A program made the position numbers and the translations under genes. Positions 574 through 56,749 of a stretch of 64,000 nucleotides of DNA are shown here, piece after piece (within the stretch, counting starts at the first letter, position 1; each line of letters opens with the position of its first letter). A model generated the notes under the pieces. That model saw only the letters and a list, made by a program, of their open reading frames with translations. It was not told the origin of the DNA and did not search any database. This stretch comes from Tetradesmus obliquus (lineage: Eukaryota; Chlorophyta; Chlorophyceae; Sphaeropleales; Scenedesmaceae): contig CP126204.1 in NCBI GenBank assembly GCA_030272155.1, positions 806,001 through 870,000 on the forward strand. The letters are read 5' to 3'.

Positions 574-3500
574 TCAGAAAGACAGCTGCTCAGTGGACAA
601 ACCATGCTCCTGCAGCTGCTGCTTGCCGCTTGCGGTCCCAGCAAGCAGCACCTGCACCTCAACACAAGCAACCTCTTCCTCTTTGGCGGCTCCAGCAACC
701 TGCTCATCAGGCTGCTGCTCATCCTCTGTATGTCGCTCATCATCCAAATCAGAATGCAGAATGCAGCTAGCACCAGCGCTGTCTGCAACAGCAGCACCAG
801 CTGCAGGCCTGTCCTTAGCCAGCCTGCTGCCACTCCTGCTGACAACTCCTGCCAGCACTGCTTCAGCTGCCTGCCCAGCTGCGACAGCTGCTGCCTGCTC
901 TGCTGCTGCCTGGTTCTGTTCAGCCTGCCCGTCCTCTTCCTGGTGCGCCTGCAGCAGCTGCTGCTGCATTGGTGGGAAGTACCAGCTGCTCTTGAGCCGC
1001 GAGCCAATGCGGCCCAGCACAAGCTCCTGCAAGCGGCAACACCCAACACACTGTGTCACAGCTGTGTTTGTCACATACACACAGACGCTGATGCAGCAGG
1101 CACGTGCATGAGGCAAATCATCAGCTGATGCACACAGTACATCTAGCTACCACGCAGGCTGCTCAAACTCCTTCTCTGCCATCGGGGTTGCATCAAAGCA
1201 TAAGCCGAACCAAGCGCGGCCCCACCCGCACCTGCAAGCCCAGCGCAGACTTTCGCCGCAGCATCCCTCCCAGCAGCTGCGGCTGCACCAGCCCACTGGC
1301 AGCCCTGCTGCCCACGCCATCTAGCGCTGCATCTGCGTCCTGCGCTGCCGCCCTGCCGTGTTCACACTGAACTTCAAGGCCAGCCAGGAAGTGCTCCACC
1401 AGGAACTCTGGCTCCCGCGCCATCCTGAAGAAGCGGAAGCCCAGCAGCTCAGCTGCGGAGGGCCGCTGGCTGGGGTCCTTGCACAGGCAGGCATCCACCA
1501 CCTCCTTGAAGCACTGCAGCGACACAGCACACACAGAGAAAGGGCAGCAGTGATCAGTATCGTCTCATAAGTTCCATGTCATTGTGCTGGACCATTTGCT
1601 GGACTACAGGCAGGCATCCACCACCTCCTTGAAGCACTGCAGCGACACAGGAGCACGTTGGCAGTGGTGGCAGCGATGAAAAGTCGGCAAAGCCAGTCAT
1701 GCGGCACTAATCTAGGATTTGAGTGTGGGCTGGTTCTTGCAAAGCTCCATGTTAACATGCGCTTCGAGCAGCACAGCAGAGTTCACACGGTGCTGGCCGA
1801 AGAACTCATTGGTTTTAAAGAGTGTCCTGCAAAGTTCATGGTCAGCAGCAGTGGTGTGTCACGCAGTTGAACTGGGGGATACTAGAGTACTGCACAGCAG
1901 CAACTTGATAGTCACCTTTGAGAAGTGCTCGTCCAGGCTGGGTGGCGGGTTGTTGATGGTGTCCATCAGCACCCGCATGGGGTGGGCGCGCGACAGCGGC
2001 GGCCTGCCCTGCGCCAGCTCGATCATGGTGATGCCCACAGACCACATGTCCGCAGACGCATCGTACCTGCAGTACAACAGATAAAAAACCAGAACAGTTG
2101 TACAAGAGGTTTGCACCAAGTGTCTTTGTGACATGACGGCAGCTAGCCCTGCGCCTCAATCATGGTGATGCCCACCGACCACATGTCTGCAGAGTTGTTG
2201 TAGCTGCAGCATGCAGGTCAGCAGCATGGCGGCACGCGGCAGGATGTCAGGTAGTGTGGTGGGTGCTGGGTTGGAGCAGCACAGGGGGCTGCGCAGAGCA
2301 GAGTTGCATGGCCAGACGAAGCCCACTGCACACGACAGCTTGCCAGCTGCTCATGAATCCTCCTGCAACCCATACTCAACGTTGCTACTAAACCCGCTGC
2401 TTGCATAGTACAGCATGTGAGCTGCCTGGTGCGTTCCTGCAAGCCAACAGCGCAGGCAGGCTGTGCCGGCTGCCCTCACCCGTCATCCTGCGCCATGACC
2501 TCCGGCGCCATCCAGCAGGGCGTGCCCACAAACGTGGTGGCCATCACCGCTGACATGTCCAGGTTGATCATGCTGACCTGTAACAAGCAGGCAGCATGAC
2601 AGGGTGCATCACAACAGCTCAAACACGACTGCAACAGCTGCCGCAGCATGGCCACAGCGCGGCCCTCAAGAGATGCAGGCACATACATGCATGGTCATTG
2701 ACAGCACACTGTATTGGTCAACACCTGCATATGCAAGGCAAGCCACCTTCACTGACAGCTGCAGGACAAGGCGCCTCACTGCCATGTCAGCTGGCGGCTG
2801 CCCACCTGGCGCGCGCGTGCAGCAGCAACCCCAAAGTCTGCCAGGCGCACTGCACCATCCTCGGACATGAGGATGTTGTCGGCCTGCAGCAGCAGGATGC
2901 ACTGATACATTGGATGCAGTGACGCCGTCAGCATCGCCAACACACAGTGCCACAGGCAGGCGGACTGGCATCTACTGCCATCTACTTATAATGCCCCACT
3001 CAGCATAGCATGATGTGGATGCAAAGAAAGCGCTGCAGATTAGTGATATGCTGCAGTCTGGTTGCTTGGACAGGGCAACCACCATATTGCAGTGCTTGCT
3101 GCAGTGCCTTACCTTGATGTCCCTGTGGATGCCTCCATTCTGGTGCACGTAGTCAAGCCCTTGCAGGACACCGCGCATGATGCTGGCAATCACCACCTCA
3201 TCCAAGCCCTGAGCAAGAGCAACACCAGTAGCAGCAGGACAGCACAATGGGCCAGCTGTGCGATACACTGTCATGCAGCGCTACAAGCGAGCGCTGTTGT
3301 AGCTGCTTCTACTGCCTCTGTGTGCTAAGCATCTTGTGCGATGGTTGCGCTTCCGCTGCAAAAGCAGCAGCTGCTGTGAACTGACCCTTGCTCAGCAGCA
3401 ATGTCTGCTGGCATAGGCAGGAACAGCCGTGCAGACATACTTCTACTGCAAACCCTGCGCAAGCAAGCCCTGCACAACCATGAATCATCACTGTCGCTGC

Positions 3501-55300: not shown

Positions 55301-56749
55301 ATAAGGCTATGACAGCTGCGCAGCACTGTTGTGCATTACAAACAGCCCGAGTTCGCCTGAAGACCCCGTGTTTGTGCCTGTGGCCTGCTGAATTGCCAGA
55401 ACTGCTGCACCGTTTGTTGCTGCTGCAGTGGCGCTGATCGCGCTGTCGCCCTACACCAGCGAGCTGTTCCCCACCTCACACAGGGCAACAGCGATGGGCA
55501 TCTTTGCACAGGTGGGCGACGCAGTGCGCTGCTGAAGCCGTGCCCCCAATTGCGCACATTCAACAGGCTGTGGCAGTTTGGGACAAGTGGCACTTGCATG
55601 TGACTTGCAGCAGTGAGTCATTGGTCCAACACATGCTGCCAACACTGAGACTGCTGCATCACCCGTTCACCGTCATATATTCCCAGCAGTACCAGTCAAG
55701 TCAGTTGAACAAACCAGCATGCCTTTTGTGTTTCATTGCTGCCCCCAGGCAGCCCGTGTGGGCTCCATTGCTGCCCCTTCAATGATCATGCTGGGAAGCA
55801 TAGCTGCACTGTGTGTGACAGCACTTTGAGATCCAAACTCCAAGCATGTGTGCCTCGCCTGTGTCATGTTCCTCCTGCTGTCCGTCAGGCGGCCCGCATA
55901 GGCTCCATTGCTGCCCCTTCAATGATAATGCTGGGAAGCGCAGCCGCCAGCAGCAGCAGCAGCCACGCCTCAGCATCCACCACACTGCCCTACACCGTGT
56001 TTGGCGCCGCCTCGCTGCTGTCGGGGCTGCTGATGCTGCTGCTGCCAAACACGCGCGGCGCGCCGCTGCCGGAGACTGCAGCGGTGGGTGCACATGTGTA
56101 CAGTCTTTGCCATTCTTTATGCAGCCAGCTGAGCGCATGTATACCATATGATATAGGACAGTCGCTCTCGCTGATCATACTGACAGCCTTGACCTGCAGG
56201 AGCGATTAAAGTGTGCACAGTTGCACGGTCCCTGCGATAACTGCAGTACCGAACTTTGCATGCGCACAGCACCTGCAGAAGCTAGCTAGCTTGATGCTAA
56301 AGCATCCACCACTCCTCACAGCGCACCACCGTGTTCCTTGTAAACAACCCAACCAATAGCTGCCACACCATAATCCTGTTTATCAAACACCTGGCGAATT
56401 GCCTGCTCGCTGGTGTCTGCAGGACCTCAAGCGGCTGCGCACTGTGCTCAGCAGCAAGCCCTCACGGCCTGGGCTGAAAGGGTTGCTGCAGCACGTGCTG
56501 AACCCGCCAGCAGTGCTCAGCCTGGAAGAGGCAGCTGCAGACAGACCTCTGCCTGTAACTACCAGTGGAGGTGCTGACAACTGCACAAATGCAACTGGAC
56601 ACGAGCGTCATGCTGTGACCTGCAGACAGGGCAGCAGCAGCAGCAGTCAGTGTGGGGTCGAAATGCAGGGATGTTGGGCATTGGGGTTTTGTTTGAGGGC
56701 CAGAGCCTCTGCAAGCGCAGCGTGTGGAGCACTCAAGACAGCGATGTGA
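52369..56749 (+). CDS. Organic-cation-transporter-like MFS carrier, about 9 exons
   Basis: Major-facilitator carrier of the OCT/SV2-like group, substrate unknown. Exon 1 starts at ATG 52369 (ITFDEALTHYVGEFGSGQ, then a membrane segment); its donor is not resolved. Exon 2 ends at 52666 (DPVSAGFCALPRDAWYW). Then 52783-53098, 53425-53586, 53855-54415, 54753-54949, 55429-55511, 55889-56083, 56423-56749. Phases agree from exon 2 onward. Seen: HLDLVCSSAYK, GLLCDKIGRRLPLF (the MFS loop 2-3 motif), PESARWLLSKGQ, YTSELFPTSHRATAMG, and PNTRGAPLPET at the end of the last membrane segment. The large loop after PESARW is S/T/Q-rich. The soluble C-terminal tail may extend if a further intron is removed near 56650, since another open frame runs to 56991. 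Confidence 0.8.
54590..54700 (+). repeat. Acceptor-side ghost of MFS exon 6, with stop codons
   Basis: Copies the first about 95 bp of exon 6 (true 54753) at high identity, including ctgccgctgcag. One CAG became TAG (gcagcagtagagctg) and a later TAA is present, so inclusion would truncate the protein. Confidence 0.94.
55080..55165 (+). repeat. Donor-side ghost of MFS exon 6
   Basis: Repeats the AALAQCLLAAGKFGC-like coding end of exon 6 (true copy 54885-54949). The GT donor context is changed (aacggtgcgg). Confidence 0.9.
55185..55262. repeat. Near-perfect 32-bp inverted repeat (hairpin) in MFS intron
   Basis: Arms 55185-55216 and 55231-55262 pair with one mismatch (ctctgcaaccattacaccgt against the reverse complement of the other arm). 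Loop is 14 nt. It lies directly after the exon 6 donor ghost. Confidence 0.95.
55742..55810 (+). repeat. Acceptor-side ghost of MFS exon 8
   Basis: ccccaggcagcccgtgtgg and the following GSIAAPSMIMLGS coding stretch repeat about 145 bp before the true exon 8 at 55889. Confidence 0.92.

Follow-up and report, generated by a model that had tools for sequence, protein, structure and literature searches.

A tandem duplication that doubles splice signals has a precedent. In the potato RdRp gene, one tandem duplication spans the end of an intron and the start of an exon, with ten differences between the copies and the splice signals doubled, and an 83-bp duplication lies nearby, inside an intron (PMC4974935). 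That is a single case in which a new intron and an extra exon are spliced in, whereas Tetradesmus obliquus presents a genome-wide class in which the extra edge apparently lies unused in the intron. In the known case of an intron derived from an exon copy, small tandem duplications are likewise tolerated through splicing, but there the duplicated segment is within the exon and the intron is the exon copy, whereas in T. obliquus introns gain copies and the exon is unchanged. In the Rogers-type model of intron gain, duplicated AGGT inside a former exon delimits the intron; the copies appear to differ from it, carrying the exon's own splice site and sitting inside introns.

Concerted evolution of duplicated genes by gene conversion (PMC2720389) similarly places homogenised segments next to diverged ones; it concerns whole gene pairs, whereas here the units are fragments of tens of bp within one gene, with mostly non-coding partners. 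Introners (PMC9860276) also give rise to genome-wide similarity involving introns and splice sites, but they are element families common to many genes, whereas a T. obliquus copy resembles its own exon only, within the 304 kb compared. Fill-in at breaks by CST–Pol alpha-primase produces small tandem duplications in mammalian cells, with insertions under 100 bp mentioned (PMC8355091); it is a plausible source of duplications, without the tie to exons seen here. We found no description of this class of exon-edge copies in the titles or abstracts listed by one open-access library, and a word search of the main texts of a few Scenedesmaceae or Sphaeropleales genome papers did not return the word "intron".

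Copies in the window and across the genome

The window, that is, the whole stretch of 64,000 nucleotides analysed, had been read from sequence alone as carrying acceptor-type units (intron end plus exon start) and donor-type units (exon end plus intron start) in seven genes: two kinases, SSL, GONST-like, SET, xylulokinase and MFS. All seven indeed carry such copies, hereafter ghosts, and both types exist. Those outside the xylulokinase gene are the following.

1606 to 1650, minus strand: kinase 1, start of exon 1232-1513 copied once (acceptor-type) over 45 bp at 100% identity and a spacing of 123
2137 to 2209, minus strand: kinase 1, start of exon 1916-2066 copied once; by eye, the copy shows a TAG in frame and a deletion of 3 bp
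9419 to 9769, plus strand: SSL gene, four acceptor-type copies upstream of exon 9852-10008
11038 to 11200, plus strand: SSL gene, two donor-type copies after exon 10743-10881
11398 to 11873, plus strand: SSL gene, acceptor-type array upstream of exon 11978-12088 (period about 131, 4 copies, 89-99%)
12620 to 12961, plus strand: SSL gene, donor-type array after exon 12406-12549
15861 to 15923, plus strand: kinase 2, end of exon 15594-15760 copied once (donor-type)
16324 to 16391, plus strand: kinase 2, end of exon 16131-16245 copied once (donor-type)
17242 to 17742, plus strand: kinase 2, acceptor-type array upstream of exon 17743-17880 (period 98, CTG tracts within the unit)
33552 to 33922, minus strand: GONST-like gene, two acceptor-type copies (33552-33671, 33827-33922) for exon 33016-33422
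34471 to 34736, minus strand: GONST-like gene, start of exon 34096-34365 copied three times
35688 to 35733, minus strand: GONST-like gene, end of exon 35816-35929 copied once (donor-type)
37623 to 37813, minus strand: SET-like/GONST-like locus, end of exon 37890-37980 copied twice (donor-type)
40224 to 40617, minus strand: SET-like gene, start of exon 39945-40130 copied three times (acceptor-type)
54581 to 54707, plus strand: MFS gene, acceptor-type copy before exon 54753-54949
55096 to 55174, plus strand: MFS gene, donor-type copy after exon 54753-54949

The xylulokinase gene, on the plus strand, carries these copies.

45772 to 46283, plus strand: end of exon 45440-45637 copied three times (donor-type; 45772-45896, 45973-46074, 46159-46283)
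46787 to 46888, plus strand: donor-type copy of the end of exon 46578-46709
47280 to 47474, plus strand: two donor-type copies of the end of exon 47097-47219
47587 to 47783, plus strand: two acceptor-type copies before exon 47868-47983
48064 to 48440, plus strand: after exon 47868-47983, three tandem units of about 120 bp in which the exon part is conserved and the intron part, though decayed, is still homologous
49445 to 50002, plus strand: three donor-type units of about 240 bp each after exon 49079-49288
51751 to 51859, plus strand: stop-codon end of last exon 51553-51660, a non-splice CDS edge, in weak copies at 73% and 84%

Read by eye, copy 45772-45896 is in frame with synonymous differences only, and copy 46159-46283 has a frameshift. 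A whole-genome search with the annotated xylulokinase, P0001, a check independent of the predicted gene models, returned its own exons and 12 out-of-order partial repeats of the same residues within introns. Descent of these ghosts from a paralogue was rejected because the remaining genome matches to P0001 had E values of 0.04 or worse.

With CTG tracts masked and at E<=1e-6, local repeats (spacing <1500) were direct rather than inverted: 65 against 1 in the window and 161 against 3 in 20 unselected 10-kb stretches of the genome, or 226 against 4 pooled. Block-shuffled versions of those 20 stretches gave none. The spacing of the repeats has a mode at 100-160 bp and a second peak at 240-300. 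At least one local direct repeat occurred in 17 of the 20 unselected stretches and in all four held-out ones. The earlier proposal of a real, genome-wide pattern stands, local direct repeats being present in 21 of 24 separate stretches. Because the copies differ by about 10% on average and repeats recur in these stretches, assembly error is judged unlikely.

A partial copy lay near 26 of the 56 window exons and 67 of 169 exons of predicted genes overall (E<=1e-5), so that "most exons", as first put, was too strong; at least one copy occurred in 18 of the 23 predicted genes. The 169 exons remain after 32 of 201, flagged as duplicates of a longer exon, were treated as non-exon, with genes scoring under 40 or having fewer than three exons excluded and the gene model frozen before the held-out stretches were scored. 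For the two genes that were checked, the predicted models agree with proteins from the annotation or from databases. The gene model called some ghosts as exons.

Position, register and probable origin of the copies

Donor-type copies lie downstream of their exon in 63 of 65 cases, both exceptions coming from one predicted L021 exon of doubtful status, and acceptor-type copies lie upstream in 53 of 53. Only 2 of 138 copies, of predicted exons of 33 and 47 bp, cover both edges, bearing out the view that this is not whole-exon duplication. Among the clusters not internal to an exon, 73 of 78 involve coding sequence and 5 are intron-only, against 30% under random placement (P=2e-32); at least one of the exons flagged as duplicates, 1232-1513 of kinase 1, is probably real, so that its ghost is scored as intron-only in this count. 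In the held-out stretches, 19 of 21 clusters are coding-involving and two intron-only.

Plain neutral decay, with random duplication everywhere and exon-crossing events visible for longer because the exon copy is unchanged, would explain this arrangement and some of the enrichment, but 73 coding-involving clusters out of 78 exceed what halved divergence would give, by our estimate. Alternatively, duplications might form preferentially in coding DNA, through composition or chromatin for example, with exchange playing a minor part. In its favour, even whole-unit clusters are coding-involving in 25 of 26 cases; against it, 14 of 37 tandem arrays lie outside predicted genes, 9 of them with a coding signal no higher than that of at least a quarter of control segments, and the decoupling of exon and flank described below would be left unexplained. 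We regard this preference as very improbable.

The stop-codon end of the CDS, missed by the sequence-only reading, is copied as well: 4 of 18 ends against 51 of 192 donors (P=0.79), with so few ends and mostly weak copies. Only 1 of 20 CDS starts has a copy, and CDS ends pooled are lower than splice edges (5/38 against 99/374, P=0.08). A splice-specific or RNA-templated origin was rejected because stop-codon ends show copies too, within these limits. Anchoring at exon borders, as first suggested, is likewise not needed as a mutational step, since stop-codon ends resemble donors, though the pooled CDS ends fall lower, and since the intron part is also duplicated in a share of cases. In 18 of 61 cases the intron lying between an exon and its ghost can be aligned, at z>3, with the sequence on the ghost's far side; among 310 random pairings the share was 1.3% (P=2e-13). 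The mean homology score was 2.3 in register against 0.2; the 61 are the nearest type A or D copies with spacing <330 and at least 25 bp between, four contiguous cases having been set aside. This faint homology, together with direct orientation and adjacency, suggests that tandem genomic duplication is the likely origin of the exon-edge copies, with direct support for part of the cases, and local duplication appears to have been rightly proposed as the cause.

Flank homology above z=2 is absent in 34 of the 61 cases, which remain compatible with an edge-limited templated insertion, whereby a coding edge and a few splice-site bases would be copied into the adjoining intron, without flank, by template switching at breaks or stalled forks. 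Such insertion would account for flank z<2 in 11 of 20 register-test copies of at least 93% identity, for a 45-bp copy at 100% and a 47-bp copy at 100% that stops exactly at the exon end, and for the star-like relation of the copies, few changes being common to several ghosts. It would not lead one to expect evenly spaced copies with a second spacing peak at double the first, nor the tandem-register homology and whole-unit arrays, and we consider it unlikely as the general explanation.

Two further origins were examined and set aside. An introner or other mobile family, already dismissed in the first reading in the case of introners, finds no support: none of five matches between stretches (25 stretches, 304 kb, E<=1e-8; ghosts taken from the first 21 sequences) touches a ghost. 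CTG-anchored slippage, which that reading had offered as a possible cause, is not supported by the breakpoint comparison: 15 of 120 copies have a tract no more than 20 bp from their inner boundary, as do 354 of 3268 random points in introns. As a separate observation, some arrays carry CTG tracts inside the unit.

Divergence of exon parts and flanks

The match between true and ghost sequence is 0.74-0.95 in the exon, 0.73-0.89 at donor positions +1 to +5, about 0.55 just beyond and near 0.3 at +30 to +40. Unequal decay, in which exon and splice consensus stay alike and the intron flank drifts, accounts better for this abrupt drop at the splice site. Copies do keep GT (54/66) or AG (53/61), as claimed, but any exon dinucleotide of those copies is retained nearly as often (0.77 and 0.81).

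Selection could hold the ghosts if they served as decoys or as alternative exon edges. The density of true-ghost differences at third codon positions, 0.177, is 2.7 times that at the other two (0.066 and 0.063), an excess also found between ghosts (0.080, 0.081 and 0.167 by codon position), and the changed codons comprise 359 synonymous and 293 non-synonymous cases, against 163 and 509 expected were all neutral. Copying from an evolving exon accounts for part of this excess, to a ratio of at most about 1.7 by our estimate. The in-frame xylulokinase ghost and the donor score of GT-keeping ghosts (5.95 against 6.14 for true donors) also favour function. However, 31 of 35 exon-part indels shift the frame, stops number 16 against 19 in a simulation with all changes neutral, and 37 of 138 copies have a frameshift or stop, with a third-position ratio (2.4) little under that of the remaining copies (3.0). 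GT and AG survive little better than other dinucleotides, the annotated proteins P0001 and P0121 lack ghost sequence, and among the 240 homologues fetched for this pair of genes, not one shows an internal repeat at short range under the thresholds used. Functional ghosts seem somewhat less probable than edge-limited insertion.

Exon-part mismatch is 0.090-0.104 both where the near flank is at least 75% identical (20 ghost-ghost and 26 true-ghost pairs) and where it is below 50% (24 and 27), detection requiring a conserved exon part and so capping exon divergence. With about 10% divergence beside fresh and decayed flanks alike, the exon parts of ghosts appear to be re-templated, probably by gene conversion or unequal exchange, a mechanism that we infer from sequence comparison. 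As a within-genome proxy, this result agrees with concerted evolution by gene conversion, under which paralogous copies would be more alike within a lineage than between lineages. Neutral decay does not predict that exon divergence fails to rise with flank divergence. It also predicts similar ghost-ghost divergence in exon and intron, whereas the match is 0.78-0.89 in the exon and 0.39-0.55 in the flank (28 donor-side and 46 acceptor-side pairs), and we hold it to be quite improbable.

Recent whole-unit pairs do not show a slower exon part (0.090, against 0.071 in the near flank), with the near flank having served to choose the pairs and the 20 ghost-ghost pairs coming from only 8 loci. The far flank of recent pairs differs more, with many more gaps (0.127 ghost-ghost and 0.212 true-ghost, against 0.090 and 0.098 in the exon). 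These figures weaken the argument that ghost exon parts are not slow, and therefore lower the weight of the exchange reading and raise that of selection. A four-gamete test for conversion gave two incompatible among 22 informative site pairs in 20 sets, too few for power, and no direct recombination footprint. Mismatches clustered slightly, the longest identical run over 107 copies being 0.37 where 0.32 was expected, and longer exon parts were not less diverged (rho +0.24), a sign opposite to that of exchange, with ascertainment pushing the same way.

Proposed explanation and its significance

The best explanation, which we hold tentatively and at close to an even chance, is coding-anchored tandem duplication followed by exchange with the working exon. 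Duplications of about 80-300 bp (mode about 130) would arise often in this genome, perhaps from staggered breaks with fill-in repair, a known route to small tandem duplications. When one crosses the end of a coding block, the gene would go on using the copy still attached to the remainder of the exon, and its twin, made of exon end, splice site and some intron, would be left in the intron as non-coding debris. The intron part of this ghost would drift to near-randomness. Gene conversion at short range, or unequal exchange, may keep the exon parts of ghost and exon alike, with the reference presumably held fixed by purifying selection on the working exon. Duplications entirely within an intron would have no fixed reference; both sides would diverge and vanish from view, and therefore the survivors would look like exon-edge units. 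Fresh intron-only arrays are almost absent, while arrays exist outside genes, which hints at a formation bias that this explanation does not need.

More broadly, coding edges could be standing templates that repeatedly overwrite the adjoining intron, through exchange with old tandem copies or dedicated edge-limited copying, so that introns would grow from exon edges inward and exon edges would be refreshed from ghosts. We regard this as possible but doubtful; import from ghosts into the exon edge, if true, would explain the excess of synonymous differences.

The T. obliquus genome offers a natural experiment, on a genome-wide scale, in how short tandem duplications survive splicing. It allows a test of whether short-range gene conversion works on tracts of tens of bases when selection fixes one partner, and it bears on intron growth and intron gain. 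For annotation, gene finders can take ghosts for exons, and the copies are relevant to estimates of synonymous rates close to exon ends.

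Distribution of the copies in genes and across the genome

The gene models come from a splice-aware gene finder trained on the window, positions 806001-870000 of contig C14 (4,804,715 bases; the genome comprises 104.66 Mb in 17 contigs), together with 20 unselected stretches. In the window, the gene finder and Pfam predict two protein kinases, a strictosidine-synthase-like gene, an FGGY kinase and a sugar or MFS transporter; one further predicted transporter has EamA and TPT matches, both below the Pfam cut-offs. The predicted xylulokinase is identical to the Tetradesmus obliquus protein P0001 (OEZ86_008359) across 99% of its length. 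Neither the SET gene of the sequence-only reading nor a sulfotransferase-like gene had a Pfam match at E<=1e-3, and these two labels are presumed here.

After masking of CTG tracts, the window yielded 65 local direct repeats and the 20 unselected stretches 161 (17 of 20 positive), against 4 local inverted repeats in all; shuffled stretches had none. Their spacing peaks at 100-160 bp, with a second peak at 240-300. The four held-out stretches, hand-picked from an evenly spaced list with their sequence unseen and the gene finder frozen, gave 42 direct repeats and 1 inverted. The unselected and held-out stretches thus bear out the proposal that the copies are genuine and genome-wide. By an independent route, when the annotated protein P0001 served as query against the genome, its exons were recovered along with 12 additional partial matches within its own introns, and the database proteins of the two genes checked are without ghost copies. 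Window 18457-33316 has no listed local direct repeat, in contrast to the remaining gene-bearing window; a 616-aa open frame inside it (23406-25256) has no Pfam match.

Copies accompany 67 of the 169 kept exons (23 predicted genes), and the 138 copies lie in 18 genes. An edge-carrying copy was found for 46/146 donor and 26/146 acceptor edges, and 64/146 introns contain a copy. Donor-type copies lie downstream of their exon (63/65) and acceptor-type copies upstream (53/53), as tandem geometry demands. Coding sequence is involved in 73 of the 79 clusters; another 5 stay within introns and the remaining one is internal to an exon. Random tandem duplications that gene structure tolerates would cross an edge in 30% of cases, against which the 73 clusters are an excess (P=2e-32). 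Among whole-unit clusters, 25 of 26 involve coding sequence, and in the held-out stretches 19 do versus 2 intron-only. The sole exon-internal cluster is a 54-bp unit (a multiple of three) present in 2.2 exact tandem copies within a predicted coding exon, at 1060-1179 of stretch L010.

Stop-codon ends have copies about as often as donors (4/18 versus 51/192, P=0.79), and therefore what the sites share seems to be an adjoining coding sequence rather than a splice site, although CDS ends are few and their copies mostly weak. CDS starts have a copy in 1/20 cases; the pooled comparison is 5/38 CDS ends versus 99/374 splice edges (P=0.08).

Tandem duplication as the probable source, and other sources considered

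Duplication of a unit in tandem requires homology between two intron stretches, the one separating exon from ghost and the one past the ghost. Indeed, in an aggregate alignment the flank homology in tandem register had a mean z of 2.3, versus 0.2 in random pairings, with 18 of 61 cases above 3 and 34 showing no signal above z=2; the clearest units are those of xylulokinase (~120 and ~240 bp). This supports a tandem-duplication origin of the ghosts. Outside predicted genes lie 14 of the 37 tandem arrays (period at least 45). In 9 of these, no fewer than 25% of control segments reach the best coding score, and in the other 5 it is reached by 5-13%; tandem duplication therefore seems general in this genome. 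Five of the six intron-classed arrays overlap copies of an exon close by; the sixth is a 25-bp repeat. We also noticed a 95-bp tandem array (2.5 copies, 91%) without notable coding signal at window 43175-43412, between the SET-like and xylulokinase genes, and large minisatellite arrays with units of 279 bp (14 copies) and 345 bp (5.5 copies) at 16-6039 of stretch L024.

A mobile family was also considered. None of the 5 matches between stretches, in a sample of 304 kb, touches a ghost, which argues at that sample size against such a family and agrees with the first view that these are not introners. The suggestion that breakpoints cluster at CTG tracts found no support, as tracts at the inner boundary of copies are not commoner than elsewhere in introns. 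CTG tracts occur among the final 60 intron nucleotides at 57/146 acceptors, and the gene finder's acceptor model is CTG-periodic. Genome-wide, the two strands carry 137,421 and 134,639 occurrences of the (CTG)6 18-mer, against 1 and 6 of the reversed pattern. A GCCT tract of ~27 units (window 46358-46462) lies shortly past the final ghost of xylulokinase exon 45440-45637.

Exon part, flank and coding constraint

Mean matching over the copies falls from mostly 0.8-0.95 within the exon, through 0.73-0.89 at donor positions 1 to 5, to ~0.5 in the dozen intron bases that follow and ~0.3 farther out; the acceptor side mirrors this profile, and ghost-versus-ghost comparison gives the same contrast. 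Near flanks with at least 75% identity and those below 50% go with the same exon-part mismatch, ~0.10; the exon part has therefore had its apparent age reset with respect to the flank. Among ghost pairs that are recent whole-unit copies, the exon part does not change more slowly than the near flank (mismatch 0.090 and 0.071), although the pairs were chosen by that flank; the far flank differs more, at 0.127, and has many more gaps. The reset suggests that the ghost exon part and the working exon exchange sequence; constraint on the ghosts may also contribute to the similarity.

Could the ghosts themselves be coding? Their substitutions are skewed to third positions (437, versus 163 and 158), and their changed codons are 359 synonymous and 293 non-synonymous, where 163 and 509 would be expected if all were neutral. 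However, of 35 indels in the exon parts 31 disrupt the reading frame, a frameshift or stop occurs in 37 of the 138 copies (some stops had already been reported from the sequence), the 16 stops are close to the neutral expectation of 19, and the splice dinucleotides decay similarly to other dinucleotides. Moreover, the share shows no significant heterogeneity across ghosts that have 4 or more differences (P=0.22), and the third-position excess extends to broken ghosts (ratio 2.4, versus 3.0 in others). The constraint therefore appears to act on the template and not on the ghost.

At codon positions 1, 2 and 3, there are 6, 6 and 26 changes confined to the true exon, and 54, 55 and 94 confined to a single ghost. 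Part of the third-position bias would arise if ghosts were copied or refreshed at various times from a constrained, evolving exon. The bias is larger than this accounts for, and synonymous changes imported from ghosts into the exon are a possible cause of the surplus.

Precedents

Elements of the phenomenon are already known. Published reports describe one boundary-crossing tandem duplication in potato (PMC4974935), concerted evolution of gene pairs (PMC2720389) and small tandem duplications via break fill-in (PMC8355091). The potato duplication is a single case, whereas the copies of Tetradesmus obliquus, the one genome examined, form a genome-wide class; our mainly open-access literature search found no description of such a class of partial exon-edge copies sustained by coding sequence.
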